Assembly: GCA_005772855.1 (NCBI GenBank)
Contig: SXIK01000244.1
Location: forward strand, 1 to 39,770
From: Planctomycetia bacterium
GTDB lineage: Bacteria > Planctomycetota > UBA8108 > SXIK01
Direction of reading: 5' to 3'
Length of the DNA stretch: 39,770 bases
Part shown: piece by piece, positions 13,894 to 34,778 of the stretch
Layout: each line of letters opens with the position of its first letter
Numbering within the stretch: position 1 is the first letter of the stretch
Made by a program: the position numbers and the translations under genes
The notes under the pieces: generated by a model
What the model was told of the DNA's origin: nothing
Seen by the model: only the letters and a program-made list of their open reading frames with translations
The model's database searches: none

Positions 13894-14378
13894 GCGAGGG
13901 AATGTAACAGTCTTCACGGTGCGTTGCTCCGGAGCCGAAGAGGCGGGGACGCGTTCCTTTGTAACCAGGCTTCTACCCGCATGGCAACTCAAGACTACCT
14001 TGCAAGGACAAATCGAAAGCCTGCCAGGGCCAGCCCGAAAGCCGAGTCAGCGGTGCGAACATCGAAAATGTTCCCGGCTTCGACACACGGTCCAGAGGGC
14101 TTGATCGGCCCCATGCCCCGCCGCTGCCCGAGCTCGCGTTCCGACGCAACCAGGGCAAGAGCTGCAACTCCGTCAAGGCGCCCCGACTTTGCGGACTGGG
14201 CGCACACGAGTCGAAGCCGGGTTTGCCTCCGGGTTGTAGAGCGCCGCGCGGCCCGCGTGGCCGCAAGGAACGATATTGCAAGGCAACCCGGTGAAATCGG
14301 GTTCGAAAGTCTGTGCCGGGCACTGTATACTGCGCGGTTTTCGAGGCCAACCATGGAGTTGCAAGGACCGGAGTCGCC
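13894..14378. other. Intergenic region between the LPS permease gene and ilvE
   Basis: About 485 bases with no convincing gene. Open frames on both strands here are compositionally biased and match nothing I recognise. The last 80 bases carry the probable ilvE promoter (14303-14331). The rest is C/G-rich with several CGAAAG-type words and no clear terminator. Confidence 0.4.
14303..14331 (+). promoter_or_regulatory. Putative sigma-70 promoter for ilvE
   Basis: TCGAAA (14303-14308), 17 bases and TATACT (14326-14331). The -35 is 4/6 and the -10 is 5/6 to consensus. Transcription would begin near 14338, about 40 bases before the ilvE ATG. Confidence 0.5.
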
Positions 14379-15428
14379 ATGACAGCAACAGCTGGAAGTC
14401 TCATGCAAAAGTCGCTTCCAAACTGGGATAATTTATCCTTCGCCTTCACCGAGACGGACTTCATGTACCGTTCGTATGGAGACAAACGTAACGTGCCCAT
14501 TTGGGACCGTGGAGAGTTCGCTCCGCTGGCGGATATCAAGGTTTCGCCAGCGGCTGCCTTCATGAGCTACGGGCTCGGGATCTTCGAGGGCCTCAAGGCC
14601 CAGCGATCGGCAGATGGACGAATTCTCCTCTTCCGGCCGGACAAGAACGCGGAGCGTTTCAAGCGTTCGGCGGTGCGCCTGAGCCTGCCCGAGTTCCCCG
14701 CGCATCAGTTCGTCGAAGCCTGTGTCGAGATGGTCCGCCGCAACGAGCGGTTCGTGCCGCCTGTCGGCAAGGGCTCGTTCTACCTGCGCCCGCTCGAGCT
14801 TGCGGTGGAGCCGAAGCTCGGCTTGGGTCCCTCGAATCTCTTTCTGGTCCTCATTTACGGGTGCCCCGTTGGTTCCTACTTCACAGGGGGGGCACCGAAG
14901 GGCGTGCGCCTTCAGGTACTGGAGCAGGGCCGCGTCGCCCCCGGCGGAACGGGATATGCGAAGTGCATGAGCAACTACGCTGGCGGCATCTACGTGGCCT
15001 CCCAGTGGAAGGAGAAGGGCTTCGATGACGTCCTCTACCTCGATGCGCGTCATCTGAAGTACGTGACGGAGACGAGCGGCTCCAACGTGTTTTTGAAGCG
15101 CAAGGACGGCGTGATCGTGACCCCGTCGCTCGATGACCAGATCCTTCCCGGTGTGACCCGAGACTCGACTATTCAAGTCGCACGGAGTCTCCTCGGCATG
15201 AAGGTGGAAGAGCGGCCGCTAGCGATCGACGAGGTCATCGAGGAGGGTGAGGAGCTCTTCTGCACCGGCACCGCGTGGACTCTCCAGAGCGTGCGGGAGA
15301 TCGTTCACCATGGCATCACGGTAAAGTTCCCGGTGGAAGACGCCAGGAAGGCGATCCTGGACGTGGTGCGCGGGATACAGACCGGCTCACGTGAGGATAC
15401 TTTCGGCTGGACGGTCAAAGTTCGATAG
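14379..15428 (+). CDS. ilvE: IlvE-type branched-chain amino-acid aminotransferase
   Basis: PLP enzyme that makes or degrades Leu, Ile and Val by transamination with glutamate/2-oxoglutarate. From the ATG at 14379 it is 349 residues, the usual length of the class IV subgroup that includes eukaryote-like BCATs. Visible blocks are SYGLGIFEGLKAQRSADG, FYLRPLELAVEPKLGL, the PLP-lysine region GTGYAKCMSNYAGGIYVA, VTETSGSNVFLKRKDG and ILPGVTRDSTIQVARSLLGM, then ELFCTGTAW. A frame extending 22 codons upstream overlaps the promoter and is excluded. It precedes the aromatic fusion gene by 70 bases and may be cotranscribed with it. Confidence 0.93.
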   Translation: MTATAGSLMQKSLPNWDNLSFAFTETDFMYRSYGDKRNVPIWDRGEFAPLADIKVSPAAAFMSYGLGIFEGLKAQRSADGRILLFRPDKNAERFKRSAVRLSLPEFPAHQFVEACVEMVRRNERFVPPVGKGSFYLRPLELAVEPKLGLGPSNLFLVLIYGCPVGSYFTGGAPKGVRLQVLEQGRVAPGGTGYAKCMSNYAGGIYVASQWKEKGFDDVLYLDARHLKYVTETSGSNVFLKRKDGVIVTPSLDDQILPGVTRDSTIQVARSLLGMKVEERPLAIDEVIEEGEELFCTGTAWTLQSVREIVHHGITVKFPVEDARKAILDVVRGIQTGSREDTFGWTVKVR

Positions 15429-15498: not shown

Positions 15499-17541
15499 AT
15501 GGACGAGCTCGAGCGAATACGTCAAGACATCAATGCAACGGATGAGCAGATCCTCGTCGTCTTGGCGAGGCGTCGTGAGCTCACGAACGAGGTGGTCCGG
15601 AGGAAGGCAGAAGCCGGCCTCCAACTCAGAGATCCACGCCGTGAGGAGGAAATCCTGGCGCGACTGATCGAAAAGGGTCGAGAGCTCGGCCTCGACTCAC
15701 ACTTTGTGACAAGGATCTTTCACGAGATCATTGACGACTCCGTCCGCGCGCAGCAGCTCTTCCTCCTGAAGAGCTCAAACCGTTCGGAAGAGGGAATGAA
15801 ACGCATCGCGTTCCAGGGCATCCATGGCGCCTATAGCCACCTTGCAGCCCGAAAGCACTTCGCTCGCACGCTCGAACAGACCACATTCATTGGCTACCCG
15901 AGCTTCGAAGAGGTCATTGTTGCTGTCGAGAAGGGTACAGTGGATCTTGCGTTTCTCCCGATCGAAAATACCACCGCCGGGAGCATTAACGAGGTCTTTG
16001 ACCTCCTGGCACAGACCACGGGGCTCTTCATTGTGGGCGAAGAGGTCTTTCGGGTAGAGCACTGCCTCCTGGCAACGGACGATGTCCCGATCGAAAATAT
16101 CCGCCGGGTCTACTCGCACCCCCAGGCGCTCAAGCAGTGCATGAAGTTCCTCTCGACGCTCTCAAATTGCGAGCCGGAGTACTACACCGACACCGCCATG
16201 GCCGCGCGAAAAATCAAGGAGGATCAGGACCCGACACAAGGCGCAATCGCCAGCGAGGCCGCCGCCCGACAGTTTGGTCTCGTGATCCTGAGGCGTGACT
16301 GTGCGGACCAGAAGGAGAACTACACACGATTCCTGGTAATAGCCCGGGAGCCGATCAAGGTGGACCCGAGGATCCCCTCGAAAACTTCCCTCGTGCTAGC
16401 CGTGCCACACGAGGAAGGCTCACTCCTGAAGGCCCTCATGGTCTTTCACCGCAACAAGATCAACCTGACGAAACTTGACGGCAGCCGGCCCCGCCCGGGC
16501 GCGCCTTTTCAGTACATCTTCAACGTCGACTTCGAGGGCAATATCGCAAGTGAGAACGTCCGTAACGCCCTCAATGAGCTTCGCACCGCCACAAGCTTCC
16601 TGAAAATTCTCGGAACCTACCCCGTTGAGAACCGGGGCAAGACAGCACCATCGATTCAGTCGGTAGTCCCCAAGAGGAAGCCATCGGGAGAGGAGACGGC
16701 TGCCCACTCGAAAGCTTTGGCAGCAGCCGTCAGCGAGCCGGAAGCTCCAACCCACCGCCTGGCGAGTCGGAGTGCGAAACCCGCCGGCACTGTGATTGAT
16801 GTGCGCACCGTAAAAATTGGCGGCCCGGAACTCGTCGTCATCGCCGGCCCCACGACAGTTGAATCCAGGGAGCAGATCCTCTCCTGCGCCCGGCACATCC
16901 GGGAGTGTGGTGGAAAGGCTCTTTTTGGCGGTCAGTTCAGGCCGGGCACCTCGCCAAGTGGAAGTTCGTTTTTGGGCCCCGAGTCACTCGAGCTATTGAT
17001 CGAGGCGGGGAGGGTCTATGACCTGCCCATCGTTGCCGAGGTAACCCACCCCGCGGATGTTGATCCCCTTGCCCGGAAAGTCGATATTTTGCGCCTGGGC
17101 GCTTCGAACATGCAGGACACCGCGCTTCTTGTCGCCGTCGGAAAGGTGAACCGTCCAGTGATCTTGGAGCGAGGATCCAGCGCCTCGCTGGACGCGCTCC
17201 TCACGGCAGCTGAGTTGGTCATGAGTCACGGCAACCAACAGGTGATCCTCTGCGAGCAAGGCGTGCGCACCCTCGAGACTGGCTCGAGAAGCCTCCTGGA
17301 TCTGGCTGCAATTCCAACCCTCAAGAGGCTCACTCACCTCCCGGTTTTCGTCAACCCCTCGCACGCTGCGGGCCATCGGGAGCTGGTCCTGCCGCTGGCC
17401 ACCGCCGCCACCGTTTTCGGGCCGCACGGGTTCGTCATTGAACTCGAGCCCGGCGCAAAGCCCGGAGCGACCTCGCCACCGCAAACCCTGTGCTTCCCGG
17501 AATTCGCGATCCTCATGCACGCGCTGTACGCGAAGCACTAG
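15499..17541 (+). CDS. Chorismate mutase-prephenate dehydratase-ACT fused to a DAHP-synthase-like domain
   Basis: A 680-residue fusion. Residues 1-90 are an AroQ chorismate mutase very like the E. coli P-protein (IRQDINATDEQIL, RRELTNEV, DPRREEEIL, HFVTRIFHEIIDDSV), with the active-site Arg, Lys, Glu and Gln residues in place. Residues 100-285 are prephenate dehydratase (PIENTTAGSINEV and KENYTRF with the catalytic Thr). Residues 295-375 are an ACT domain (EEGSLLKALMVFHRNKINLTKLDGSRP) for Phe feedback. After a linker, residues 440-680 follow type I-beta DAHP synthase (VVIAGPTTVES, LFGGQFRPGTSP, LRLGASNMQD, ILCEQGVRTLE, VNPSHAAG). That domain has Thr452 for the metal Cys and lacks the usual Lys/Arg phosphoenolpyruvate ligands, so it is probably inactive. 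The first two activities convert chorismate to phenylpyruvate. The start is set by homology at the ATG at 15499; the frame is open further upstream. Confidence 0.9.
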   Translation: MDELERIRQDINATDEQILVVLARRRELTNEVVRRKAEAGLQLRDPRREEEILARLIEKGRELGLDSHFVTRIFHEIIDDSVRAQQLFLLKSSNRSEEGMKRIAFQGIHGAYSHLAARKHFARTLEQTTFIGYPSFEEVIVAVEKGTVDLAFLPIENTTAGSINEVFDLLAQTTGLFIVGEEVFRVEHCLLATDDVPIENIRRVYSHPQALKQCMKFLSTLSNCEPEYYTDTAMAARKIKEDQDPTQGAIASEAAARQFGLVILRRDCADQKENYTRFLVIAREPIKVDPRIPSKTSLVLAVPHEEGSLLKALMVFHRNKINLTKLDGSRPRPGAPFQYIFNVDFEGNIASENVRNALNELRTATSFLKILGTYPVENRGKTAPSIQSVVPKRKPSGEETAAHSKALAAAVSEPEAPTHRLASRSAKPAGTVIDVRTVKIGGPELVVIAGPTTVESREQILSCARHIRECGGKALFGGQFRPGTSPSGSSFLGPESLELLIEAGRVYDLPIVAEVTHPADVDPLARKVDILRLGASNMQDTALLVAVGKVNRPVILERGSSASLDALLTAAELVMSHGNQQVILCEQGVRTLETGSRSLLDLAAIPTLKRLTHLPVFVNPSHAAGHRELVLPLATAATVFGPHGFVIELEPGAKPGATSPPQTLCFPEFAILMHALYAKH

Positions 17542-17891: not shown

Positions 17892-17950
17892 CGAGCCACA
17901 AGCGTTTGCAAGCTACCCGCCACCGACGAGGTGCGCGGGTTTTTTTTTAT
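17876..17950 (+). terminator. Attenuator: terminator hairpin with alternative antiterminator before leuA
   Basis: Terminator stem: 17915-17924 (ACCCGCCACC) pairs with 17930-17940 (GGTG, one bulged C, GCGGGT), loop GACGA, followed by nine Ts at 17940-17948. A competing pairing joins 17876-17885 (GGCGGATGGT) with 17912-17921 (GCTACCCGCC): seven Watson-Crick pairs, two G-U wobbles and one mismatch. The upstream strand of this antiterminator covers the last codons of the leader peptide. A ribosome finishing the peptide would block it and allow termination, while one stalled at the Leu/Ile/Val codons would leave it free. The terminator is clear; the switch is inferred. Confidence 0.7.
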
Positions 17951-17995
17951 CCGCATCTTTTCTTCAAAGGGCTCACATACAGTGAGACGCAAGCC

Positions 17996-19585
17996 ATGAG
18001 AAGGATCAAGATTTTCGACACAACCCTGAGGGATGGAGAGCAGAGTCCAGGCGCCAGCTTGAATGTTGGCCAGAAGCTTGTGATCGCACGGCAGCTCGAC
18101 CGTCTGGGTGTCGACGTTATTGAGGCGGGTTTTCCCATCACTTCTTCTGGTGATTTCGAAAGCGTAAAGCTCATCGCTGCTGAAGTAACCCGACCCGTGA
18201 TTTGCAGCCTGGCTCGAACACGCCCCGAAGACATCGATGCCGCGGCGCGCGCCCTCGAAGGCGCCAAGCGCAAACGCATCCACGTGTTTATCGCCACAAG
18301 CGACATCCACATGGACAAGAAGCTGCGCATGTCGGCCGATCAAGTCGTCGAGACAGCCATCCGGGGCGTCAAGCTGGCTCGCAACCATACGGACGACGTC
18401 GAGTTCTCGCCAGAAGACTGCTCCAGGACCGACCTGGACTTCATGTGTCGGGTCGTCGAGGCAGCGATTGACGCCGGGGCCACGACCATCAATATCCCCG
18501 ACACTGTGGGGTACGGAATTCCCACGGAGGTCTCCCGCCGCATCACTTACCTGCGCGCCAAGGTCCCAGGCGTCTCGAAGATCACGCTCAGCATTCATTG
18601 CCACAACGACCTTGGCTTGGCCGTCGCAAACTCGCTGGCGGCAATGGAGGCGGGTTGTGAACAAATCGAGTGCACCATCAATGGTCTCGGCGAGCGGGCC
18701 GGCAACGCCTCGCTCGAGGAGATCGTGATGGCGCTGTGGTGCCGCCGGGAGAGCTTTCAGGCGGAGACGGGCATCAACACCCATGAGATCTTCAAGACGA
18801 GCCGCCTCGTGAGCGAGCTCACGGGTATCTCCGTCCAGAGGAACAAGGCAATCGTTGGCGAAAACGCCTTCGCGCACGAGGCCGGCATACACCAGCACGG
18901 GGTCATGGCGCACAGGAACACCTATGAAATCATCCACGCTGAAGATGTGGGGTGGGAGGGCCAACAGATCGTCGTCGGCAAGCACTCCGGTATCCACGCA
19001 ATTGAGCAGGTGCTCTCGAAACACCGCTACAACCTGGACAAGGACCAACTCCGTGACGTCACGAACCGCGTGAAACAACTGGCGGACTCCAAGAAGACCA
19101 TTGAGGAGGACGACATTGTGGCGATCGCTCTCAACGTGCTCGACCAGTTGGCCCCCAACGAGCAACTCCTGGAGTTAAAGGAGGTCTCGGTCATGACCGG
19201 AAACGGATTTACACCGAGCGCCACAGTCAAACTCCTCATCGGCGGGCGCGAGGTGATCGGTATGGGAACGGGCGTCGGCCCCGTCGACGCTGCAGCTCAC
19301 GCCCTGCAATCCGTCATTCACCAGGAGTTTGGCCCCTCCCTCGAGCTCAAGGAGTACGGGCTCAAGGCCATCACGGGAGGTACGGATGCCCTGGCGAACG
19401 CCCAGATCCGCTTCAGCGACCAGGAGTCCAACTCGTTTCGTGGCGAGGCGATCAACAAGGACATCATCATGGCGTCGGTGCTCGCCATGGTGGAGGGGGC
19501 AAACCGCGCCGTGAACTTTCAGAAGAGGTCTCGCTCCCAGAGCAAAGCCCCGCCAGCTCCACAACCGAGCCGAAACGCCCTGTGA
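17996..19585 (+). CDS. leuA: LeuA, 2-isopropylmalate synthase
   Basis: Condenses acetyl-CoA with 2-oxoisovalerate, the first step of leucine synthesis. From the ATG at 17996 it is 529 residues. The HMGL-like TIM barrel begins [19 protein letters not shown] with the metal-binding Asp, continues [26 protein letters not shown] and [18 protein letters not shown] (metal His pair) and [15 protein letters not shown]. The C-terminal LeuA dimer/regulatory domain spans about residues 395-510 ([18 protein letters not shown]...[16 protein letters not shown]), where leucine feedback acts in the family. The frame is open to 17906 through the terminator, but homology begins at this ATG. It is followed after 30 bases by cimA and preceded by the attenuator. 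Confidence 0.96.
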
Positions 19586-19615
19586 GCTTCAAGTCCATAC
19601 CCCCGAGGTAAAACC

Positions 19616-21226
19616 ATGTCCAAAGTAGAGATTTACGACACAACTCTTCGTGACGGCTGCCAGGGCGAGGGCATTTCGTTCTCGCGGGACGACAAGCTCA
19701 AGATCCTCAAGTGCCTCGACGGATTTCGGGTCGATTACGTCGAAGGCGGCTGGCCCGGCTCGAATCCGAAAGACATTGATTTTTTTCAGGCCGCGAAGGA
19801 TGTACCCCTGGCGCACGCGAAACTGGTCGCCTTCGCGAGCACTTGCCGGCCGGGCAAGGCGCCAGAGGACGACGCGAGCCTACAGGCCCTTGTGAAGGCA
19901 GAAACCGAAGTTGTCACGATCTTTGGGAAGGCCTGGAAGCTGCACGTCACGGAGGTGTTCCGCACGACCATTGAGGAGAACCTCCGCATGATCGAGGAGT
20001 CCGCAAGATTCCTCCACTCTGAAGGACGGGAAGTCATCTATGACGCCGAACATTTCTTCGACGGCTACAGGGACGATCCGTCGTACGCCATGGAGACTCT
20101 CGCCGCGGCTTCGAGGGGAGGCGCCAGTAGGCTCGTGCTTTGCGACACGAACGGTGGGATGCTGCCGGGTGCTGTGGGAAATATCGTCTCGGAGATCAAG
20201 GCTCGTTTCCCGGGGATCGACCTTGGCATCCACACCCACAACGACAGCGGCCTGGCGACGGCAAACTCGCTCCAGGCGATTGAGCGGGGCGCAGTGCATG
20301 TCCAGGGTACTTTCAACGGATTCGGCGAGCGCTGCGGCAACGCGGACCTCTCAAACATCATTCCCAATTTGATCCTGAAGATGGGCCGAGAGCTTTCCAT
20401 TACAAGGAAAGACCTCGGCCAACTTACACACGTCGCCCGCTACATTTGTGCGATCGCCAACCAGACTTTCCCCGAGAACCTGCCCTACGTGGGTCAGATG
20501 GCCTTTGCGCACAAGGGCGGCGTGCACGTCAACAGTGTCCTCAAACAATCAGCGACGTACGAACACGTTGAGCCGGACCTCGTGGGCAACTCGAGGCGAA
20601 TCCTCATCAGCGAGCTTTCGGGCAAGGCGAACTTGCAGCACCTCGCGCACGCAGAAGGAATCGACCTGGAGAAAAATCCTCAAGCGGCGCAGCAGGCCGT
20701 TGCCGAGATCAAGCAACTGGAAAACGAAGGCTACGTCTTCGAGGGAGCCGAAGCCTCCTCGACTCTCATCATCCTGAAACACCTGGGCATTCTGCCCGAA
20801 TTCTTTGAGCTGGTTCGCTACCGTGTGGCGGTCGAACACAGGACGACGGGTGGCACGTTCTCCGAGGCGACGGTCAAGATCCAAGTTCGAGGTGAGGAGC
20901 ACCTCGCCGTGGGCGAAGGAGTCGGCCCCGTCGATGCGTTGGATGCAGCCCTGCGCTCGGCGATCCGGCAGTTTTACCCGGAGCTTGACCACATTGTTCT
21001 GAATGACTACCGAGTCAGGATCATCAACGCTGTTGCCGGCACGCACGCGAGGGTCTGTGTCTTCATCGAAACGAAGGACAAGGAGCAAGACAGTACTTGG
21101 GGAACGGTCGGCGCCGGGGAAAATATCATCGAGGCATCCTGGAGCGCCCTCAAGGACAGCATCCTGTACGGCCTCTGGCGCAAGGCACAGCCGACAGGAG
21201 ACGGTTGCCTCACCGAACGCGGGTGA
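19616..21226 (+). CDS. cimA: CimA, (R)-citramalate synthase
   Basis: Condenses acetyl-CoA with pyruvate to citramalate, the threonine-independent route to 2-oxobutyrate and isoleucine. The 536-residue protein is a LeuA paralogue with CimA-specific sequence: EIYDTTLRDGCQGEGISFS, VDYVEGGWPGSNPKD, EVIYDAEHFFDGYRDDPSYA, LCDTNGGMLPG, IHTHNDSGLATANSL, GTFNGFGERCGNADLSNIIPNL and FAHKGGVHVNSVLK. A C-terminal regulatory domain (about residues 385-510) ends in the GVGPVDALDAALRSAI block. GAGGT precedes the ATG. It is the second gene of the leuA operon, and its end overlaps the convergent glycosyltransferase gene by 17 bases. Confidence 0.95.
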   Translation: MSKVEIYDTTLRDGCQGEGISFSRDDKLKILKCLDGFRVDYVEGGWPGSNPKDIDFFQAAKDVPLAHAKLVAFASTCRPGKAPEDDASLQALVKAETEVVTIFGKAWKLHVTEVFRTTIEENLRMIEESARFLHSEGREVIYDAEHFFDGYRDDPSYAMETLAAASRGGASRLVLCDTNGGMLPGAVGNIVSEIKARFPGIDLGIHTHNDSGLATANSLQAIERGAVHVQGTFNGFGERCGNADLSNIIPNLILKMGRELSITRKDLGQLTHVARYICAIANQTFPENLPYVGQMAFAHKGGVHVNSVLKQSATYEHVEPDLVGNSRRILISELSGKANLQHLAHAEGIDLEKNPQAAQQAVAEIKQLENEGYVFEGAEASSTLIILKHLGILPEFFELVRYRVAVEHRTTGGTFSEATVKIQVRGEEHLAVGEGVGPVDALDAALRSAIRQFYPELDHIVLNDYRVRIINAVAGTHARVCVFIETKDKEQDSTWGTVGAGENIIEASWSALKDSILYGLWRKAQPTGDGCLTERG

Positions 21227-22263: not shown

Positions 22264-24069
22264 ATGTCCGCGATCGACGAAACCCTTCCTCCCCAAAAAC
22301 CTTTCCCCTCGTGCACAGAGGAGCCGCATTTCCCTGCTAATGTGGGAAGAAACCTCGACGATCCAGGCGAGGAAGCCCTCAGCACGATGGGGCCTTACCG
22401 TGTGGTGGAGAAGCTTGGATCCGGCGGCATGGGCGTGGTCTACAAGTGCGATGACCCAGGGCTCAAGCGATTCGTCGCGGTGAAAGTTCTGCGCAAGAAG
22501 TACTCGAACGACGAGAGCTACCAGCGCCGCTTCCGCCGTGAGGCGCAGACAATCGCAAGCCTCTCGCATGCCTCCGTCGCGCACATTTACGGAATCGGTG
22601 AGGTCGGCACCTCCACGGGATCGTTCCTTTACATTGTAATGGAGTACCTTGACGGTCCTTCGATCGAAAAACTTCTTGCAATCGAGAAAAAGCTGCCCAT
22701 CAAGCTGGCGACAGAGCTCGCGCGCGATACTGCCCTGGGCCTGAAGGCCGCCTTCGCAAAGGGCATCGTACACCGTGACATCAAACCCTCGAACCTGCTC
22801 GTGAGCCCGTCGAGCGGCCTGAAGATTGTCGACTTCGGCCTGGCGAAGGAACTTCGCGGCGAAAACTCGCTCACCGACGATGGCATCGTCATGGGCACGC
22901 CGCACTATATTTCTCCCGAGCAGGGTCGGGGCCACCCGGTCGATCATCGCTCCGACATCTACTCTCTCGGCGCCACACTCTATCACATGCTGACGGGACA
23001 ACCCCCTTTCGAGGGTCCGAACCAAGTCTCGGTGATTGTCTCGCACGTTAACGACACTCCAAGACCACCGCACGACATCGAACCCTCCGTTCCCGAGTCA
23101 GCCTCTCGCGTGGTGCTCAAGATGATGGCGAAGGCCGCCGAGGATCGCTACCAGAGCTATGATGAGGTGCTAACTGACCTGGATGAGATCTTGAACGGCG
23201 TCTCATCCACCCCGGGAACGCTGCGCAGGGCCGAAACACGGCTTATCGAGGCTCCCGAACCGCGAAAAGGCCGGATGTGGGCGCTCGCCGCGCTCTCTCT
23301 GATCACGCTCATCGCTGCGACGCTGGCCTTCCTTCTGGCCCCGCCGGCACCCGCGATTGACGCGGCGCAAAGGGAAGCCTACGCCGGCTGGATCAAGGAC
23401 CGCGACGATGGCGGAATCCTCCTCACGATGGACTTCTCCGCACCTCCACCCGAGCGGGCCGGGCGAGAGACATGGCGTAGTCTGCTCGTGCCTGTGAGCA
23501 ATGCGCCAGAGACCGGACCTCGCCCCCAAATTCAAGGCGGCACGCTTCGCTGGGAGAGCTTTGAGAATCCAGTTGCCTGCGGGTTCAGGTTTGAGGCCAT
23601 TGACGAGGTGCAAATTGGCATCGGCCAGGGAGCCGGCTCCTGCGATCTTGGCTTTTCGGTCCTCGACTCCAAAGCCCCCAGGGGGAGGCACCTCCTCGTG
23701 CGCCTTCGGCCATCGGAGGTGACCCTGGAGCCCCTCGTGGCCGAGCGAGGGGGCGAGCGGGCGAAGCTCCTTGGGCCCGACCTCGCACCGGTGCCGAGAC
23801 TGCTCGGCCAGGGCCCTTTCGTGGTCTTTCTCGGGCTGAAAACATTGGCTCAGAACACGCACCTGTCGCTGAGGATCCACCGAAAAAAGGATGGGAGCCA
23901 GCACTACGAAGCTCAGTGCGAGCTGGAAGGAACCGACTGGCGCCAGGGCATCTTGGTTCTTCAGATGCAATCCCCCGTCAAACCCTTCTCGGCCTCGATC
24001 GACCAAGTCGTCATCTCGGGCAAGGTGGCTCGGCCTGCCGTCATGGAGGATTTCTCTTGGCGAAGTTAG
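22264..24069 (+). CDS. Membrane Ser/Thr protein kinase (Hanks/PknB type) with extracytoplasmic domain
   Basis: A 601-residue transmembrane kinase. The catalytic domain spans about residues 44-310: LGSGGMGVVYK glycine loop, AVKVL with Lys74, HRDIKPSN (170-177), DFGLA (190-194), GTPHYISPEQ and SDIYSLGATLYHMLTGQPPF. All catalytic residues are present. A single membrane helix lies at 338-359, then about 240 residues outside the cytoplasm with beta-strand-rich sequence (GGTLRWESFENPVACGFRF, LSLRIHRKKDGSQHYEA) that looks like a jellyroll sensor module; no family is recognised. The next gene starts inside its last codons and encodes an FHA protein, a natural reader of phospho-Thr, so the two probably form a signalling pair. 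A shorter start at residue 42 is possible. Confidence 0.93.
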   Translation: MSAIDETLPPQKPFPSCTEEPHFPANVGRNLDDPGEEALSTMGPYRVVEKLGSGGMGVVYKCDDPGLKRFVAVKVLRKKYSNDESYQRRFRREAQTIASLSHASVAHIYGIGEVGTSTGSFLYIVMEYLDGPSIEKLLAIEKKLPIKLATELARDTALGLKAAFAKGIVHRDIKPSNLLVSPSSGLKIVDFGLAKELRGENSLTDDGIVMGTPHYISPEQGRGHPVDHRSDIYSLGATLYHMLTGQPPFEGPNQVSVIVSHVNDTPRPPHDIEPSVPESASRVVLKMMAKAAEDRYQSYDEVLTDLDEILNGVSSTPGTLRRAETRLIEAPEPRKGRMWALAALSLITLIAATLAFLLAPPAPAIDAAQREAYAGWIKDRDDGGILLTMDFSAPPPERAGRETWRSLLVPVSNAPETGPRPQIQGGTLRWESFENPVACGFRFEAIDEVQIGIGQGAGSCDLGFSVLDSKAPRGRHLLVRLRPSEVTLEPLVAERGGERAKLLGPDLAPVPRLLGQGPFVVFLGLKTLAQNTHLSLRIHRKKDGSQHYEAQCELEGTDWRQGILVLQMQSPVKPFSASIDQVVISGKVARPAVMEDFSWRS

Positions 24070-25970
24070 TTGTGATCGAAGGGCCCGACGCCGGCAACGA
24101 GCACGACCTTGATGTTGCCGCGGCCAAGGGCCGCGCGAGCCTCATCGCAGGTCGCGACCCTCGCAATGAGCTCCCCGTGAACGATACGGCCGTCTCCCGA
24201 AGGCATTTCTCGCTGGAGTGGTCGCCAAGAGGCTGGCGGCTCGTGGATCAGGGCAGCCGAAACCAGACGTTTCTCAATGGTCGGCCGGTCAAGGAAGCAC
24301 TGCTCGTCGCCGGCGACGTGATTCGGGCCGGCGACACCGAGTTTCGCTACGAGAACCAGGGCGAGGCTCTCAACGTCGTCGGCGTCCAGTCCACGATTCT
24401 GAAGGAGCTGCCGGTGGGCCGACGGCACGACACCATCCTCGAGCGAATTCAGAGCCTCGAGGCCGCGGTTCAAACCGCTGGAGCGCAGCCGCCCGAGCCG
24501 AGAGTGGCAGCTCATGAAGCGGTCGTGAGAGTCTCGAAGCTGTTCGAAGCCTGTGGTCAGCTCACGGCGACGATTTCTGCGACCGACCTCTTCGCCAGGC
24601 TGGTCGAGGAGGCGTTGCCCGTGCTCGAGGCTGACGGGTGCACCGTCGTGCTGCGGGAGGCAGGACGCTGGGTGCTCAAGGCCTCGCAGTCAAGCCCTGA
24701 CTCGCCCGGTGGCGTCAATGTCTCCGAATCGATCCTCGAACGCGTCGCTCAGGAGAAGAGGGCCACGCTCACTGCCAGCACAAGGAAGGAGAATGGCTCC
24801 ACAGCTTCAGCGGAGAGCTTGAGCGTGATTGCCGCGCCCCTCGTCTCGAGCGGAGAGACCCGGGCGGTGCTTTACGCCGAGCGCAGGGCAACGCACCGAC
24901 CTTTCACCGAGGCAGACCTCGAGCTTCTCGCGGCCATCGCAGAGCCAGTGGGGTCGCTCTTCGCAAAGTTCGAAGCAGCCGAGAACCTGCGGCAAGAGAA
25001 CCGAAACCTCTACCGTAGCATCACGGAAACAAAGCGCATCGTCGGCCGCTCCAGGGCGACCGAGGAGCTGCTCGAGTTCATCCGCAGAGCCTCTCCAACG
25101 CCAATGACCGTGTTGATCCAGGGTGAGACGGGCACCGGCAAGGAGCTCGTGGCCGCTGCGATCCACTACGCGAGCCCTCGCCGGGGCCGCCCCTTCGTGG
25201 CGATCAACTGCGCTGCCTTGCCCGAGAATCTGGTCGAAAGCGAGCTTTTCGGTCACGAGCGCGGCGCATTCACCGGGGCAGCGACCCGCAGGAAGGGCCG
25301 GTTCGAGCTGGCAGACTCGGGCACGGTATTCCTGGACGAGGTCGGAGAACTGACGCTTGCCTGCCAGGCCAAACTGCTACGGCTGCTCGAGGAGCGGCAG
25401 TTCGAGCGAGTGGGCGGCGTGGAGTCAGTGAAAATCGACGTCAGGATCATCGCGGCCACGAACCGTGACCTCCTCGCCGCCGTGAACGAGGGCGCCTTCA
25501 GGGAGGACCTTTACTACCGGCTGAGCGTGCTCAACGTCCAAATCCCACCTCTCCGACAGCGCCCGGAGGACGTCCCGCTCCTTGCCCAGCACTTCCTCGA
25601 TGCCCTGGGGGGCACGTCGAAGCTCTCGAAGGCTACTCTCAAGAAACTCGGCGAGTACTCGTGGCCGGGCAATGTGCGACAGCTTCGCAATGTGATCGAG
25701 AGCGCCGTCGTGCTTGGCAAAGGACCCGAGATCAGTCCCGAGGACTTGATCCTGCCCCCCCCGAAGCGGCTGGACGGCCCCAGGGAGAAGGAGGCGTGGG
25801 AGCCGATAACACTTGAAAGCCTCGAGAGGTTTCACATCGAGCGAGTTCTCGGCCACACCAGTGGTAACAAGAAGCGGGCCGCTGAGCTCCTCGGGATCGA
25901 GCGATGCACGCTCTACGCGAAGTTGAAGTCTTATGACCTTGGCAGCCCGAAGGGAGAGCTGGATGAATGA
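24057..25970 (+). CDS. FHA-GAF-AAA+ sigma-54-dependent transcriptional activator
   Basis: A 637-residue enhancer-binding protein from the TTG at 24057. That TTG has GGAGGA six bases upstream and lies inside the kinase's last codons (13-base overlap). The frame is open further upstream but that part is a kinase-gene shadow. Residues 1-105 form an FHA domain (GR at 32-33, SRRH at 47-50, N69). Residues about 155-305 form a GAF-like domain, followed by a coiled linker. Residues 327-560 form the AAA+ domain with Walker A GETGTGKE (356-363), GAFTGA (403-408, the sigma-54 contact loop) and VFLDEVGE (424-431). Residues 585-626 form a Fis-type helix-turn-helix (KKRAAELLGIERCTLYAKLK). Likely phosphorylated or recruited through FHA by the upstream kinase. 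Its probable target is the -24/-12 promoter before gspD. Confidence 0.94.
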   Translation: MAKLVVIEGPDAGNEHDLDVAAAKGRASLIAGRDPRNELPVNDTAVSRRHFSLEWSPRGWRLVDQGSRNQTFLNGRPVKEALLVAGDVIRAGDTEFRYENQGEALNVVGVQSTILKELPVGRRHDTILERIQSLEAAVQTAGAQPPEPRVAAHEAVVRVSKLFEACGQLTATISATDLFARLVEEALPVLEADGCTVVLREAGRWVLKASQSSPDSPGGVNVSESILERVAQEKRATLTASTRKENGSTASAESLSVIAAPLVSSGETRAVLYAERRATHRPFTEADLELLAAIAEPVGSLFAKFEAAENLRQENRNLYRSITETKRIVGRSRATEELLEFIRRASPTPMTVLIQGETGTGKELVAAAIHYASPRRGRPFVAINCAALPENLVESELFGHERGAFTGAATRRKGRFELADSGTVFLDEVGELTLACQAKLLRLLEERQFERVGGVESVKIDVRIIAATNRDLLAAVNEGAFREDLYYRLSVLNVQIPPLRQRPEDVPLLAQHFLDALGGTSKLSKATLKKLGEYSWPGNVRQLRNVIESAVVLGKGPEISPEDLILPPPKRLDGPREKEAWEPITLESLERFHIERVLGHTSGNKKRAAELLGIERCTLYAKLKSYDLGSPKGELDE

Positions 25971-26850
25971 TTTCCGGAGGCTCGCGATGGCGACCTTGGT
26001 GACGCTCCCTGCGCTCTGGGGGTTCCTCCTGGCAGACGATCCCCCGGTGAAGAAATCTCCCGAGGAGCCCGGTACGTCTCCTCCACCACTAAACCCAAGA
26101 ATCGTCATTCGCCAGCGGAAGACACCCCTCCCCGAGAAGGTAGCACTGCCAGGGAAGGCGGGGGAATACCCGGCTCCGCAGGTGCTGTCTCTCGCAGGTG
26201 TGCTCACGGGCCGCCCCGTACGCCTCGATGGCAATCGAGTGCGTGAGACCAAGGTGACGATCAACGAGGGCTCCGCCGGGGAAGAGGTCACGCTCGAGGA
26301 GCTGAAGGTGATCCTCGCTTCGCACAAGCTCTTCCTGTTTCCGATAACGGACCCACAGGAAGGCGAGATCCTCGTGGCAAGTCGCAACCCGGAGTGGAAG
26401 GAGGAGCCGCCAAGGTTCACGAAGGTTCTGGAGGTCCGCGAGGGGAGCTTCAAGCAGGCCTGGGAAAAGATCGAGAAGGCGGTCAAGGAGCGAAATTCAA
26501 GGCTCTCCGGGGGAGAAGCGCCCATCGTCGCGATCATGAGCGAGCGATCGGGCAAGATCATCCTGGGGGCCGGAAAAGAGGAGCACCTCACGCAACTCGC
26601 GAAAGAGCTCGAGCAAGAGCTTGCGACAAAGGCCGCTGACCGACCCCACCTTTACACCTACACGGGCCTCCACCGTTCAGTTGCCGCACTCGAGAAAGGC
26701 CTTCGCGAAAAGCTAAGCGAGGCCGATTTGAACCAGGTGCATGTGGTGATTGCAACGAAGGGCAACCGTCTCTTCTTCCGCGCCCCGGCAGATGTCTGGG
26801 AGAAGGTCCAAGTCGCCTTGAAAGAGCTGGACACCGACCGCGAGGAATAG
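25963..26850 (+). CDS. Exported protein resembling secretin N-terminal (N0/STN) domains
   Basis: A 295-residue product from the ATG at 25963, which overlaps the activator stop by eight bases and has GGGAG upstream. Residues 1-25 form a signal peptide (ATLVTLPALWGFLLADD), then a Pro-rich linker. The part around VLTGRPVRLDGNRVRETKVTI...LEELKVILASHKLFLFPI has the pattern of the secretin N0/STN domain (a two-strand beta unit, a helix, then LVAS). Two more alpha/beta units of about 80 residues follow, ending VHVVIATKGNRLFFRAPADVWEKV. No secretin barrel is present. It sits directly before gspD, so a secretin-associated periplasmic adaptor is the best guess. Not firmly identified. Confidence 0.65.
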   Translation: MNDFRRLAMATLVTLPALWGFLLADDPPVKKSPEEPGTSPPPLNPRIVIRQRKTPLPEKVALPGKAGEYPAPQVLSLAGVLTGRPVRLDGNRVRETKVTINEGSAGEEVTLEELKVILASHKLFLFPITDPQEGEILVASRNPEWKEEPPRFTKVLEVREGSFKQAWEKIEKAVKERNSRLSGGEAPIVAIMSERSGKIILGAGKEEHLTQLAKELEQELATKAADRPHLYTYTGLHRSVAALEKGLREKLSEADLNQVHVVIATKGNRLFFRAPADVWEKVQVALKELDTDREE

Positions 26851-27028
26851 GCCGACTCGGCTCGGCGATTCATTTCCCGCTGCCCCCTCGTCTCCCCTCC
26901 TCTACTTCCCTGGTCGCCGGAGCCCGCCACAGAACTGGAGGCACTTGTCCAACGGGATGTCAAGCCCTCCCCGAAAACGGCCGAAAACTATGGGGCCGAT
27001 TCACTTTGTGTTTCCTTTTCAAACCCTC

Positions 27029-27060
27029 GGCCTCACCCAACCTCGGTTTGGGGCTCGGCC
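27029..27060. promoter_or_regulatory. Imperfect inverted repeat, possible activator site
   Basis: GGCC...CCCAA...TTGGG...GGCC forms a loose dyad centred near 27044. It lies about 75-105 bases upstream of the -24 element, a usual distance for binding sites of Fis-type activators. The arms are offset by one base, so this is only a candidate operator. Confidence 0.3.
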
Positions 27061-27132
27061 AGCAATGACCCTCGGACTCCTAAATGAACAGCCAACAAAG
27101 TCTTGCGAAACGCGACGCCGCGACTTCCTCAG

Positions 27133-27149
27133 TTGGCCAGGGCTTTGCA
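27133..27149 (+). promoter_or_regulatory. Sigma-54 (-24/-12) promoter of the T2SS operon
   Basis: TTGGCCAGGGCTTTGCA matches the long sigma-54 consensus (YTGGCACGRNNNTTGCW) at every defined position except two (A and C of GCAC). The GG (27135-27136) and GC (27147-27148) are at the required 12-base spacing. Transcription would start near 27160, about 70 bases before the gspD ATG. The nearest upstream regulator gene encodes a GAFTGA-type sigma-54 activator. Confidence 0.6.
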
Positions 27150-27230
27150 TTGGAGGCTACTTCGCCCCCCCCAGGCCGGGAAACAAGGTCTCCGAGAGGA
27201 AAAGAGTCTGCCGAGGAGTGGAACGTTTCG

Positions 27231-30191
27231 ATGATTTCGCACTGTAAACGCACGATGCTGACTTGCATTCTCGGAGGATTCTTCTGCCTCTGCATCTCCC
27301 CGGACGTCCACCCACAGGGTGCCGAACCAGCGCCCGGGAACGATCCGCCCCCGACCAGTGAAGACAGCGGAACGACCGCGGAAGCAGAGCCTGAAGACGC
27401 TCCTGCGCCTCTTCCTGCCGACGCCAAGGCTCCTGCCGGCGGCATGGGAGCGCCTCCCGCAGGCGGCACCCGGCCCAATGAACCGTCGGAGACTCTGCCC
27501 GGTACCGGTAACGGAGCCCCCACGCCCCAAGCCACCTCCCCGGATCCCACCGAGGAGGGCAAGAAACAGAAAATTCTGCCTCGATCCCCGGAATGGAAGG
27601 CGGGCCGCGTCGACATCTCGGCCGGAGAGATCGAGGTGCTCGAGTTTATCCGCTTCCTCGCCGACTACACCGGGTTGCCTGTAATCATCGATTCAACCAA
27701 CCAGCAGGCACAGCAGCAAAAAATCCTGATCGCCGCCCCCATGAAAGGCGTGACGGCCGAAATCGTGATCGCCCTCCTCCAGGCGAATCGTTACCTCGTG
27801 ACAAGGCAGGTCTTGCCAAGCGGCGAGGAGATTTTGAACGTCGTCTCACAGCAAGGCGCCGTTCAGGGTCCCGACGAGCCGAAGCAAAACCCACTCCTGC
27901 GCGTCGACGGCGCGAAGGTCGAGGAGTTCGCCGACGTCTTGACCTCGGAAGTGACGTCAGTACGTCCCGACGAAATTGCCACCATGGTCTTCACGCTCAA
28001 GTACACACAGCCCACGGATGCCATCCAGTCGCTCAACAGCCTCATTGGCGGGCAAAAAGGGGCCAAGTCACAAGCCTTCAGCATTGTCGACGTCAAGAAC
28101 TCCATGCTAGTGATCATCACGGCGAAGTTCGGACTCCTCAACTACCTGGCCAAGCTTCTCTCGATCATCGACGTGCCCCTCAAGGAGCCCGAGCGAATCA
28201 TTCAGATCATCGATATCGAGAACGCCGACGCCGATGAGATGATGCAGCTTATACAGACCTTTCTTCAAGGGCGAGGCTCGGGCGGCCGGTTCGGCGGTCG
28301 AGGGCTCGGCGGCACTCCAAGCCCGGCGCCAGGAGTACCGGGTGCCGGCGGCGGTGGCCGCCAATTAACCGAGCTGCAGACGAATCTCATAGCTGACTGG
28401 CGCACCCAAAAGATCATTGTGGAGACCTACTCGGAGCGTGATCTGGAGGACATCCACATGCTCATCAGGGAGCTGGACGCCCGCTTCGACATCCGACGCC
28501 TGAAAACGCGAATCTACCAGGTTCGCTATCTCAAGGCCGACGAGGTCGCCGGCGACTTGCAGACGCTCATCGGCGGTGCGGGCGGAGGTTTGTCAGGCCA
28601 GCGTGGCCTCGGGGGCGGCGGACGCGGCGGCGGCGCAGGCGGTGCTGCAGGAGGACGCCGTGGTCGATCGGGGGGAGTTTCCCGGGTTGGGGGCCGAGGA
28701 GCGGGAGGGGGCATTGCTGGTCCGACACCTGGAATCCCGGGCGGCGCGGGAGGAGGTGGCACGAATGCTCCGATGCCAGCCTTGATTGTGCCCCACGTGC
28801 AGACGAACTCGCTCATTATCCAGGCCGAGCCCGAGGAGTACGCCGAAATCATCAATATCCTCGAACAGATTGACGTGAAGCGCCGCCAGGTCTTTCTCGA
28901 GGCAGCTCTCGTCGAGGTCACCAGCGGCAGCCAGCTCAATTACACGATCGAACTCCTCGCCGGCGAGCCGAACGATACGGCCACCCGGGCGCTTTTTGAG
29001 TCGTCCTTTGGCCTCTCGGGCATCGACTTCCAGGAGTTCAACCGAACGATTCCGGATCTCTCGGGCCCGGCCAGCGTGCCTCCTGGCGCCCTGGTCGCGA
29101 TCATGAGCCGAGGCAAGTTCCCGGCCCTGGTCAGATTCTTCAAGACCAACACCGACACACAAGTCCTCGCAACTCCCTTTATTATCGCTGATGACAACCA
29201 GTCCAACACACTCGACATCACCGAGACACGCTATGTGCAGAACACCAACGTCGCAGGCGGCGCCGCCGGTGTGACCACAACGAGCAATGAGGGCGAGGAC
29301 GCCGGGATCACGCTCGACATCACTCCCACGATCAGCTCCCAAAGCGCTGTGTTTCTCGAGATGTCCCTCGAAGTATCGCAGTTCCAGCAGGGCGGAACGG
29401 CGCAGGTGCTGCCCCCGAAGACCACCAACTCGGTAACGTCGGCGGTGACCATTCCCGATGGTGAGATTTTTGTAATCGGTGGCCTGACCCGGGAGAACCA
29501 GGCGAAGGCTGTCTCGAAAGTGCCAATCCTCGGTGACATACCGCTCCTCGGCAAACTCTTCCGGTCGGAGACAACGTCCCGGTCGATATCCAACCTCTAC
29601 ATCTTCCTGAGGGCTCACGTCCTGATACACCCCGAATTCAAGGATGGAATCGAGCTGGCCAAGAATGCCCAGGAACAGGTGGAAAAGTTCGCTCCCCACA
29701 TGAACATCGTCCGGTTTTCGGCCCCGCAGGTCCCCATTCCGCCCCCCAAGGAGACGGATCTCGACGCCCCCAAACGGTTTGAAACTCGCTCTCGTTCCAG
29801 GTTCCCCGAAGGCTACGAGGCACCTCTTGGCCCTTACGAAAAACAACCCCACAAGAGTGAGGAGCCTTCACCCACCCTTTACCAGGGTGATCCGGAGAGC
29901 CCAGGAAATGAAGGCGGCATGGGCGCCGCCACGCCTCCGACACAGACGCCAGGGCTGAAGGTCAGGGAGCCGCAGCCCCGCCAGGACGTGCCCGTGGAGC
30001 CCGCCACGAAACAGCCGACCCAGGTGAAGAGTGCTCCCGAGCCCGACACAGCCATGCCCCCCCTCGTGCGTCCACCCACCACGAGCGAGGAGCAGGAGCT
30101 TGACAACCCTGCGGCGCTGGAGGGCACGGGCATGGAACTCGATCCGGACGGCTCGAGCTGGCTCTTGCCGCTGAAGCCCAAGAAGCAATAA
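27231..30191 (+). CDS. gspD: GspD, type II secretion secretin
   Basis: Outer-membrane channel of the T2SS, 986 residues from the ATG at 27231 (GAGGAG 12 bases upstream). The N-terminus has a signal peptide-like CILGGFFCLCI, then about 90 Pro/Glu-rich residues. Periplasmic N-domains follow: VDISAGEIEVLEFIRFLADY, MVFTLKYTQPTDAIQSLN, RIIQIIDIENADADEMMQLI and RIYQVRYLKADEVAGDLQTL. Two of them are split by Gly/Arg-rich loops (about 28268-28360 and 28580-28760). The secretin core has QVLATPFIIADDNQSNTLDI, AVTIPDGEIFVIGGLTR and VPILGDIPLLGKLFRS, ending FLRAHVLIHPEF. A Pro-rich tail of about 180 residues follows, longer than in classical GspD. It is the first gene after the sigma-54 promoter and is followed eight bases later by gspE. 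Confidence 0.93.
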   Translation: MISHCKRTMLTCILGGFFCLCISPDVHPQGAEPAPGNDPPPTSEDSGTTAEAEPEDAPAPLPADAKAPAGGMGAPPAGGTRPNEPSETLPGTGNGAPTPQATSPDPTEEGKKQKILPRSPEWKAGRVDISAGEIEVLEFIRFLADYTGLPVIIDSTNQQAQQQKILIAAPMKGVTAEIVIALLQANRYLVTRQVLPSGEEILNVVSQQGAVQGPDEPKQNPLLRVDGAKVEEFADVLTSEVTSVRPDEIATMVFTLKYTQPTDAIQSLNSLIGGQKGAKSQAFSIVDVKNSMLVIITAKFGLLNYLAKLLSIIDVPLKEPERIIQIIDIENADADEMMQLIQTFLQGRGSGGRFGGRGLGGTPSPAPGVPGAGGGGRQLTELQTNLIADWRTQKIIVETYSERDLEDIHMLIRELDARFDIRRLKTRIYQVRYLKADEVAGDLQTLIGGAGGGLSGQRGLGGGGRGGGAGGAAGGRRGRSGGVSRVGGRGAGGGIAGPTPGIPGGAGGGGTNAPMPALIVPHVQTNSLIIQAEPEEYAEIINILEQIDVKRRQVFLEAALVEVTSGSQLNYTIELLAGEPNDTATRALFESSFGLSGIDFQEFNRTIPDLSGPASVPPGALVAIMSRGKFPALVRFFKTNTDTQVLATPFIIADDNQSNTLDITETRYVQNTNVAGGAAGVTTTSNEGEDAGITLDITPTISSQSAVFLEMSLEVSQFQQGGTAQVLPPKTTNSVTSAVTIPDGEIFVIGGLTRENQAKAVSKVPILGDIPLLGKLFRSETTSRSISNLYIFLRAHVLIHPEFKDGIELAKNAQEQVEKFAPHMNIVRFSAPQVPIPPPKETDLDAPKRFETRSRSRFPEGYEAPLGPYEKQPHKSEEPSPTLYQGDPESPGNEGGMGAATPPTQTPGLKVREPQPRQDVPVEPATKQPTQVKSAPEPDTAMPPLVRPPTTSEEQELDNPAALEGTGMELDPDGSSWLLPLKPKKQ

Positions 30192-30199
30192 TCACCTTC

Positions 30200-31903
30200 A
30201 TGAAGCTAAGCCTTGTTCAAAATCTGGTCAGCGAGGGCGTTCTCGACGAGGAGCAGCTTGCCGAGTGCCGGGGAATCGAGCTCAACACGGGTGAGCCCAT
30301 CGATCGGGTGCTTCAGCAGAAGGGTTACGTCTCTGAATCGAAGCTGCTCGAGATCCTCGGCCGTCACCTGCGGCTTCCGGTGCGCGAAGACCTGGACTCC
30401 ATCGAGGTGCCGAAAGAGTTTACTTCGAAGGTCCCCGCTCAGTTCGCTCGAACCTACAATCTGATAGCGGTCGCGAAGACGAACGCCGGATTCGAGGTCG
30501 CCACGTGCAACCCCCTCGAAATCCACCCCATGGACGATCTGGCCATGATGCTTTCGGCCAACGTCGTTCCCCTTCTTGCGCCGCGTGCCAGGATCACGTC
30601 ACTCATCAACAAGGCTTACCAGCGCTCCTCGACCGATGTGGATGAACTCCTCGACGGCATCGAGGAGGACGACATGATCAGCTTGACAAAGGTCATCGAC
30701 GAGTCCGAGGACGTCCTCGACATCGCGAACAAGCCTCCGATTATCAAGCTAATGAACACGATCCTGTTCGAGGCCCTGAAGATTCGCGCAAGCGACATTC
30801 ACTTGCAGCCCTACGACGAACGGCTTCAGGTACGGTACCGAATCGATGGGATCCTGTACGATTCGAAGGTGATACCTAAGAAGTTCCAGGACGCCATCAT
30901 CAGCCGCGTCAAGGTCATGGGCAAGATGGACATCGCCGAGCGCCGCCTTCCACAGGACGGCCGAACGACGATCAAGGTCGGCGACGGCGAGGTCGACGTG
31001 CGAATCTCGAGCGTACCGACCTCGCGGGGTGAACGCATCGTGTTTCGTCTCCTCGACAAGAGCGCCCGACTCTACAAGCTGCAGGAGATCGGCCTCACCG
31101 ACACGAACCTGAGCACAATCCGGAAGCTGATCGGTTACTCCCACGGGATCGTCCTGATCACGGGCCCCACCGGGAGCGGCAAGACGACGACGCTCTACTC
31201 CGCCCTCGCAGAGATCAATTCCGATGAGAAGAACGTGATCACGATTGAGGACCCGATCGAATACAACATCGACGGGATCAGCCAGATCCAGGTGTCCAAC
31301 AAGAAGGGCCTGACGTTCGCCTCCGGGTTGAGATCCCTCATGCGCCAGGACCCCGACGTCATGATGGTGGGCGAGATCCGCGACGGAGAGACAGCGGCCA
31401 TCGCAGTACAGGCCGCGAACACGGGACACCTTGTCTTCTCCACACTACATACCAACGACTCGGCCGGCGCCATCACGCGTCTGATCAACTTGGGCGTCGA
31501 GCCTTACCTGGTAGCCTCGGCCGTGATCGCCGTCATCGCCCAGCGTCTTGTGCGTCTCAATTGTCCCTACTGCAAGGAGGGGCATGAACCCACGGACGCG
31601 CAAATCTCGGAGCTTGGCCTGCCCCGCAGTGCTCTCCTCGAGGGGAAGCTGTGGCGAGGAAAAGGCTGCGAGAACTGCCTGGGCCGCGGGCTCTTCGACC
31701 GAACGGCGATTTATGAGATTCTCGTCCTTGACGAGTTGATGCGAGACCAAATCATCGAGCGCACGAGCGCGTCCGTCATGAAACAGTCGGCCGTGCAGCG
31801 AGGGCACCTCTTGACCCTCCGAATGGATGGCGCCAGGAAGGTCGCCGCGGGCCAGACCACCACCGAGGAGGTTTTCCGCGTCACCCAGCTCGACGTCTTC
31901 TAA
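30200..31903 (+). CDS. gspE: GspE, type II secretion ATPase
   Basis: Cytoplasmic hexameric ATPase that powers pseudopilus assembly. The 567-residue protein has an N-terminal N1E-like domain (LVQNLVSEGVLDEEQL...RHLRLPVREDL), then the ATPase core: ASDIHLQPYDERLQVRYRIDG, Walker A GPTGSGKTTTLYSAL (about residues 322-330), the DPIEY Asp box, MMVGEIRDGETAAIA (Walker B, about 388) and the His box STLHTNDSAGAITRL. The zinc-binding tetracysteine module CPYC (about 455) ... CENC (about 490) is complete. It could also be called PilB-like, but the pseudopilin genes downstream favour T2SS. Confidence 0.95.
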   Translation: MKLSLVQNLVSEGVLDEEQLAECRGIELNTGEPIDRVLQQKGYVSESKLLEILGRHLRLPVREDLDSIEVPKEFTSKVPAQFARTYNLIAVAKTNAGFEVATCNPLEIHPMDDLAMMLSANVVPLLAPRARITSLINKAYQRSSTDVDELLDGIEEDDMISLTKVIDESEDVLDIANKPPIIKLMNTILFEALKIRASDIHLQPYDERLQVRYRIDGILYDSKVIPKKFQDAIISRVKVMGKMDIAERRLPQDGRTTIKVGDGEVDVRISSVPTSRGERIVFRLLDKSARLYKLQEIGLTDTNLSTIRKLIGYSHGIVLITGPTGSGKTTTLYSALAEINSDEKNVITIEDPIEYNIDGISQIQVSNKKGLTFASGLRSLMRQDPDVMMVGEIRDGETAAIAVQAANTGHLVFSTLHTNDSAGAITRLINLGVEPYLVASAVIAVIAQRLVRLNCPYCKEGHEPTDAQISELGLPRSALLEGKLWRGKGCENCLGRGLFDRTAIYEILVLDELMRDQIIERTSASVMKQSAVQRGHLLTLRMDGARKVAAGQTTTEEVFRVTQLDVF

Positions 31904-31967
31904 TCGGGGACAGGACCCATTGGCTGTGTCGAATCACTTGACGGCGCAGAAAGCATAGATTTCTCCC

Positions 31968-33212: not shown

Positions 33213-33303
33213 TTGTGGAGAGTGGGCCGGCATCTTACCATCACACCTGTCTGCTGGACTCCTTGACACACACCGAACGGCTTTTCAGAGAGGGACTTTA
33301 TCC

Positions 33304-33738: not shown

Positions 33739-33748
33739 GCGCACCCCC

Positions 33749-34776: not shown

Positions 34777-34778
34777 CC

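Follow-up and report, generated by a model that had tools for sequence, protein, structure and literature searches.

The window, by which we mean the whole stretch of 39,770 nt that was analysed, carries on its plus strand a 680-residue open reading frame in which an AroQ-type chorismate mutase (CM), a prephenate dehydratase (PDT) and an ACT domain, the parts of a P-protein (AroQ-PheA), are followed by a linker and a catalytically degenerate DAHP-synthase (DAHPS) domain. The features of this gene and of its neighbours are given in Table 1. The order ilvE-fusion-leuA was found in the loci examined in the window's order, as far as the contigs reach.

Table 1. Position of the fusion gene, its domains, its substituted residues and its conserved neighbours in the window
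Feature	Residues	Coordinates	Strand	Basis or remark
ilvE-like class IV aminotransferase		14334..15428	+	conserved upstream neighbour of the fusion
Fusion gene CM-PDT-ACT-(dead DAHP synthase)	680 aa	15499..17541	+	open, clean ORF
AroQ-type chorismate mutase domain	7-86	15517..15756	+	Pfam CM_2
Prephenate dehydratase domain	103-284	15805..16350	+	Pfam PDT and motifs
ACT regulatory domain	about 294-375	16378..16623	+	GSLL and GSRP motifs; model
One-residue insert in ACT ESRP motif (LDGSRP)	Gly328	16480..16482	+	motif check
Disordered linker	378-427	16630..16779	+	pLDDT <50 in model
DAHP-synthase-like (beta/alpha)8 domain, catalytically degenerate	428-680	16780..17538	+	
Replaces metal Cys	Thr452	16852..16854	+	
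Replaces PEP Arg of LRGG	Phe476	16924..16926	+	
Replace Lys and Arg of KPRT	Arg481, Gly483	16939..16947	+	
beta4-beta6 block and following helix	534-615	17098..17343	+	best kept in all dead lineages
Replaces Arg of GARN	Ser536	17104..17106	+	
Replaces Lys of LKRG	Glu557	17167..17169	+	
Replaces Arg of CERG	Gln587	17257..17259	+	
Equivalent of P. furiosus Ile181; adjoins D601	Leu602	17302..17304	+	
Replaces metal/E4P Asp	Ser659	17473..17475	+	absent from first-pass annotation
leuA-like 2-isopropylmalate synthase ORF		17906..19585	+	conserved downstream neighbour of the fusion

The Pfam DAHP_synth_1 profile (PF00793) matched residues 437-654 of the fusion with 150 bits (cut-off 25.5), and TIGR01361 gave 244 bits, below its cut-off of 267.75. 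The two halves of the protein matched the NCBIfam models for P-proteins and for type I-beta DAHP synthases, mostly below the curated cut-offs. All the mutase residues R8, R25, K36, D45, R48, E49, S81 and Q85, the equivalents of the catalytic residues of the E. coli AroQ mutase, were present, as were the ENTT, SHPQ and TRF motifs of the dehydratase. In the relatives L004-L006 the SHPQ motif, normally conserved in dehydratases, reads AQWQ or SQWQ and TRF is kept. The phenylalanine-binding motifs of the ACT domain were found as GSLL (for GALV) and as GSRP (for ESRP), the latter with a one-residue insert. The motifs of the mutase and the dehydratase were intact, in agreement with the first-pass annotation. 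The Gly328 insert was common only to the window fusion and to that of the same-family genome G295 (L040), and phenylalanine feedback may be altered in this family.

Several other clusters were recognised in the window. The leuA-like ORF is the first of two LeuA-type synthases in tandem (17906-21226), the second of which (19616-21226; HMGL and LeuA_dimer domains) may be a citramalate synthase. A haem/tetrapyrrole cluster occupies both strands between 6091 and 12779, with a class III aminotransferase (hemL-like), hemB and hemE on the minus strand and hemA and hemC on the plus strand. The region 22264-36538 comprises a Ser/Thr kinase and an FHA-GAF sigma-54 activator (22264-25970) followed by a type II secretion/type IV pilus cluster (27084-36538) with a secretin, T2SSE, T2SSF and an N-methylated pilin-like protein.

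Active-site residues and predicted fold of the DAHP-synthase domain

The domain was scored on a map of 11 residues (metal C, H, E and D; PEP/E4P R, K, R, T, R, K and R), the assignments for type I-beta enzymes being C/H/E/D for the metal, R/K/R/K/R for PEP and R/T/D for E4P (PMC6362186). The first-pass annotation had proposed that most substrate-binding positions depart from the family, and each of the residues that it named (Thr452, Phe476, Arg481, Gly483, Ser536, Glu557 and Gln587) was found at its position. With Ser659 added, eight of the 11 metal and substrate residues were replaced in the window domain, leaving Thr484, His622 and Glu648 (3/11). Two of the four metal ligands (His622 and Glu648) were therefore kept, the Cys and the Asp having been exchanged for Thr452 and Ser659, and Thr484 was the sole residue retained among the seven PEP/E4P positions. 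Phmmer alignment of the domain with the P. furiosus (1zco) and A. pernix (1vs1) enzymes had at most one gap, which was far from the active site, indicating that the residues were lost and ruling out that they were displaced.

In order to compare the active site with the rest of the domain, we took 42 DAHPS domains whose active site is kept and considered the columns with at least 90% conservation among them. The window domain retained 2 of 10 conserved active-site columns versus 65 of the 83 other conserved columns (about 78%; Fisher p = 4.5e-4), and the same test on a smaller set gave p = 3.4e-4, showing that the loss was specific to the active site. This specificity was seen in six of the seven representatives tested. 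Judging from these substitutions, the window domain very likely no longer makes DAHP.

An AlphaFold model of the window protein (seven sequences, mean pLDDT 73) was used for fold recognition alone. Its Foldseek matches were prephenate dehydratases and type I-beta DAHP synthases; the match to P. furiosus 1zco had a TM-score of 0.88 and an rmsd of 2.7, and the TM-scores against the P. furiosus and T. maritima enzymes, normalised by target, were 0.86-0.88. The C-terminal domain was thus predicted to form a DAHP-synthase barrel, in agreement with the earlier suggestion that the fold is kept. The low-confidence stretches of the modelled barrel corresponded to the former substrate loops (480-492, 589-598 and 653-659).

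DAHP synthases and prephenate dehydratase of the source genome

A search of the source genome with PF00793 gave two matches, the fusion domain and a KdsA-like gene, and no second type I DAHP synthase was found by this search. The second match was discarded as a replacement type I synthase, because its translation, from the ORF at L001, was identified by its motifs as KdsA (the match of this ORF to P0001 was only about 36 bits). One complete type II DAHP synthase was found on another contig of the genome. Its eight catalytic positions (C, R, R, K, R, H, E and D), defined by the M. tuberculosis numbering, were complete, as they were in 11 relatives. The possibility that the genome has no DAHP synthase apart from the fusion, which would have spoken against a pseudoenzyme, was thereby ruled out. 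The fusion was also the sole prephenate dehydratase of the source genome and of eight related genomes (nine in all), which explains why the fusion gene itself is kept.

Distribution of the fusion and independent losses of the active site

The fusion was present in all ten genomes searched within the window's order. Two of them, G296 (L041) and G294 (L042), bear it at the same ilvE-fusion(-leuA) locus with 11/11 active-site residues, the same-family genome G295 keeps 7/11, and the genus g3 keeps 2-3/11 with a shared pattern of its own (e.g. GPDC, LHGS and GPRN fixed). In G064 (L016), 0/11 residues and 43 of the 83 other conserved columns were left. The same fusion, for which the first-pass annotation proposed a search in related genomes, is thus found even in close relatives with all the catalytic residues, which makes the window case one of several independent losses. 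That a domain already dead was fused in a separate event is unlikely, because residue-complete fusions occupy the same locus.

Among 294 genomes of the window's phylum (its own order included) there were 11 full-length fusions and a few fragments at contig ends, and among 396 genomes of the phylum of L003, Acidobacteria by record title, there were 16 full-length ones; a single genome of 147 had the fusion in the order of G300, and further copies were found in single records titled Dadabacteria and Planctomycetes. No full-length fusion was found in the plasmid collection, and many P-proteins had no such DAHPS domain. The scatter of the fusion outside the window's order suggests horizontal transfer. 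The copy of the window's family grouped with intact Acidobacteria copies and not with those of its own order, which also suggests transfer between phyla.

Fusions were called degenerate when at least four of the 11 residues were changed and intact when all were kept or the sole change was Thr to Ser. In a tree built from the CM-PDT-ACT part alone (40 rows), well-supported branches forced at least five changes between the intact and degenerate states. The groups involved were G016 (L015), L107 with L112, G064 (L016), the window with L040, and genus g3 with the L004-L006 group, and their substitution sets differed from one to another, as expected for separate loss events.

Among the 36 full-length fusions scored for both traits, a type II synthase accompanied 11 of the 12 degenerate ones versus 2 of the 24 intact ones (Fisher p = 1.4e-6, kinship uncorrected), the absences being uncertain because most of the genomes are incomplete assemblies. 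When independent pairs were compared, about 4.5 of five agreed and on average none disagreed (sign test p = 0.0625; with only five pairs this test cannot reach 0.05). This association emerged from the window's phylum and the named relatives, and a separate phylum, the Acidobacteria, then served as a check: the 15 additional full-length fusions there included just two degenerate ones, L107 and L112, and the genomes of these two were the only ones with a type II synthase. The base rate of type II synthases in the sample of the window's phylum was 8/119. The exception was L006 (G302), a degenerate fusion with no type II match and with other type I matches. G294 and G224 had a type II synthase together with an intact fusion, a state that would fit the type II enzyme arriving first. 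Additional type I matches occurred alongside many of the intact fusions, indicating that a second synthase as such does not track the loss.

Selection on the degenerate domains and residues that they keep

Omega values were estimated by the Nei-Gojobori method. In genus g3, where the loss is older than the sampled species, omega was 0.09-0.17 for the dead DAHPS domain, 0.03-0.09 for PDT plus ACT and 0.33-0.41 for the linker; for L004/L006 the values were 0.117, 0.100 and 1.16, respectively. The dead domains are therefore under purifying selection in these two clades of relatives. Retention by selection was less clear in the window's own family: in the window/L040 pair omega was 0.26 for the DAHPS domain versus 0.12 for PDT (dS >1), and identity was 53% versus 79%, and this weak constraint together with the low identity indicates that decay may be ongoing. 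No frameshift or stop was found in any degenerate full-length fusion. The open frame, the predicted barrel, the active-site-specific loss, the purifying selection in two clades and the other complete synthase all agree with the description in the first-pass annotation of a stable pseudoenzyme rather than a broken gene.

The best kept part of all dead lineages was the beta4-beta6 block with the following helix, each of nine dead representatives retaining 23-26 of the 28 conserved columns of beta4-beta6. R558, G559, G578, V582, L584, C585, E586, G588, L600, D601, H613, L614 and P615 were kept in all nine, and none of the 11 catalytic residues was. The position of Leu602 was Leu in every dead lineage; its P. 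furiosus equivalent was changed in I181D, deposited as an interface mutant (4c1l), and the tetramer of the P. furiosus enzyme is reported to be broken by mutation (PMC4735112). Conservation of a block in the interface region, together with the lack of any shared catalytic residue, favours a structural or assembly role over conserved ligand binding, as far as can be read from the alignments.

Interpretation and alternative explanations

We propose that the ancestor was a trifunctional protein with chorismate mutase, prephenate dehydratase and DAHP-synthase activities, of the kind still found residue-complete in relatives. A separate type II DAHP synthase would have taken over the first step, and would now make DAHP in this lineage, after which the tethered type I-beta domain would have lost metal and substrate binding. 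The CM, dehydratase and ACT parts would still be used, the fusion being the sole PDT of the genome. The dead barrel would persist as a folded part, most likely as a platform that forms dimers or tetramers and keeps the assembly together, and it may also relay the phenylalanine signal of the ACT domain. We give this account as a whole, type II takeover with the tethered domain persisting as a non-catalytic and probably oligomerising part, a probability of roughly 0.7; the order of events, the loss of activity and the scaffold role are all inferred, the last from conserved residues and one published interface mutant. The P-proteins that function without any DAHPS domain in many relatives count against the scaffold.

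The same P-proteins speak for the alternative that, after the arrival of the type II enzyme, the domain is simply eroding without a role and stays only because a clean truncation is rarely available. Such passive decay would also suit the much faster evolution of the DAHPS domain than of PDT in the window and L040, as well as the state of G064, where nothing is left of the active site and little more than half of the other conserved columns. We nevertheless consider it unlikely, given that the omega of the dead domains in g3 and L004/L006 is near that of PDT and far below that of the linker, that the degenerate frames remain uninterrupted, and that the loss was specific to the active site in nearly all the representatives tested. 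It is quite unlikely that the remodelled pocket has become a sensor that binds PEP, E4P or an aromatic amino acid and controls CM and PDT. The predicted retention of the barrel and the fixation of substituted residues within clades, as in g3, would be consistent with it, but the set of substitutions differs in each dead lineage, loop 480-492 is of very low confidence in the model and phenylalanine sensing is already supplied by ACT. The ligand-binding form of the regulatory role put forward in the first-pass annotation is accordingly not favoured, no substrate-binding residue being common to all dead lineages.

The DAHP synthase of M. tuberculosis is a type II enzyme. It binds and regulates a chorismate mutase (PMC4281200), and by analogy the dead domain could dock the active type II synthase, whose presence tracks the dead state. 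This seems very unlikely, since active homologues keep the same block, which covers a known self-interface, and we found no partner-specific signature. Related KDO8P synthases that have no metal Cys exist, and with His622 and Glu648 in place the window domain might be thought to be still active by an altered mechanism, either metal-independent or with compensating residues. However, metal-independent KDO8P synthases largely keep the phosphate-binding Arg/Lys set and the Asp, which here were lost together, and the genome has a second, complete DAHP synthase; continued activity is thus extremely unlikely. Returning to the takeover by a type II enzyme, a broader form of it is possible but doubtful, namely that it is a repeatable route from enzyme to regulator, in which at each takeover the tethered type I-beta synthase would come to serve phenylalanine synthesis as a domain for control or assembly, without catalysis and possibly in contact with the type II enzyme.

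Relation to known systems

The closest described case, compared here by description, is Shewanella oneidensis aroQ-pheA, reported with a C-terminal aroAI-beta "pseudogene" (Song et al. 2005, PMC1173090), which has the same domain order of a P-protein followed by a non-functional type I-beta domain. That report devoted a single sentence to this one-species case, calling it a bizarre pseudogene of obscure origin, and, unlike the present analysis, gave no residue analysis, intact fused relatives or link to a type II enzyme. Apart from it, the literature searched, which covered few subscription journals, yielded no account of this architecture, nor any mention of trifunctional relatives with an intact active site or of the link with type II synthases. 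The new findings are that an apparently trifunctional ancestor gave rise to at least five independent losses, the window fusion being one of them, that these losses go with the presence of a type II synthase, and that selection has retained the fold in at least two clades.

The intact CM-PDT-ACT-DAHPS fusions of Acidobacteria, Dadabacteria and the window's phylum (L003, L007, L008, L041, L042, L097-L106 and others) have the same architecture and about 45-58% identity, L041 and L042 also sharing the order and the locus, and differ in keeping 10-11 of the 11 active-site residues instead of three. The type I-beta DAHP synthases of T. maritima, P. furiosus and A. pernix have the same barrel and, at 37-44% identity, most of the structural residues in common, the difference again lying in the eight replaced residues. 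The bifunctional DAH7PS-CM enzymes of Bacillus, Bacteroides and P. gingivalis, for which interdomain crosstalk is reported (PMC12202928), likewise have a DAHP synthase and an AroQ mutase in one chain, but with another domain set and order, no PDT or ACT, and an active DAHPS. The M. tuberculosis complex of DAHP synthase and chorismate mutase also couples the first and branch-point enzymes (PMC4281200), in this case non-covalently and with both partners active.

Pseudoenzyme domains have mostly been studied as single historical events. In the fusion described here one and the same covalently tethered enzyme was stripped of its catalytic residues on at least five occasions, the losses track the presence of a replacement enzyme of another type, and intact relatives survive, some of them at the same locus, so that the purpose of the dead domain is directly testable with matched intact and dead pairs. 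The family thus constitutes a natural experiment in which an enzyme was turned into a non-catalytic part. Annotation of a P-protein/DAHP synthase fusion is in consequence no guarantee that a genome has DAHP-synthase activity.
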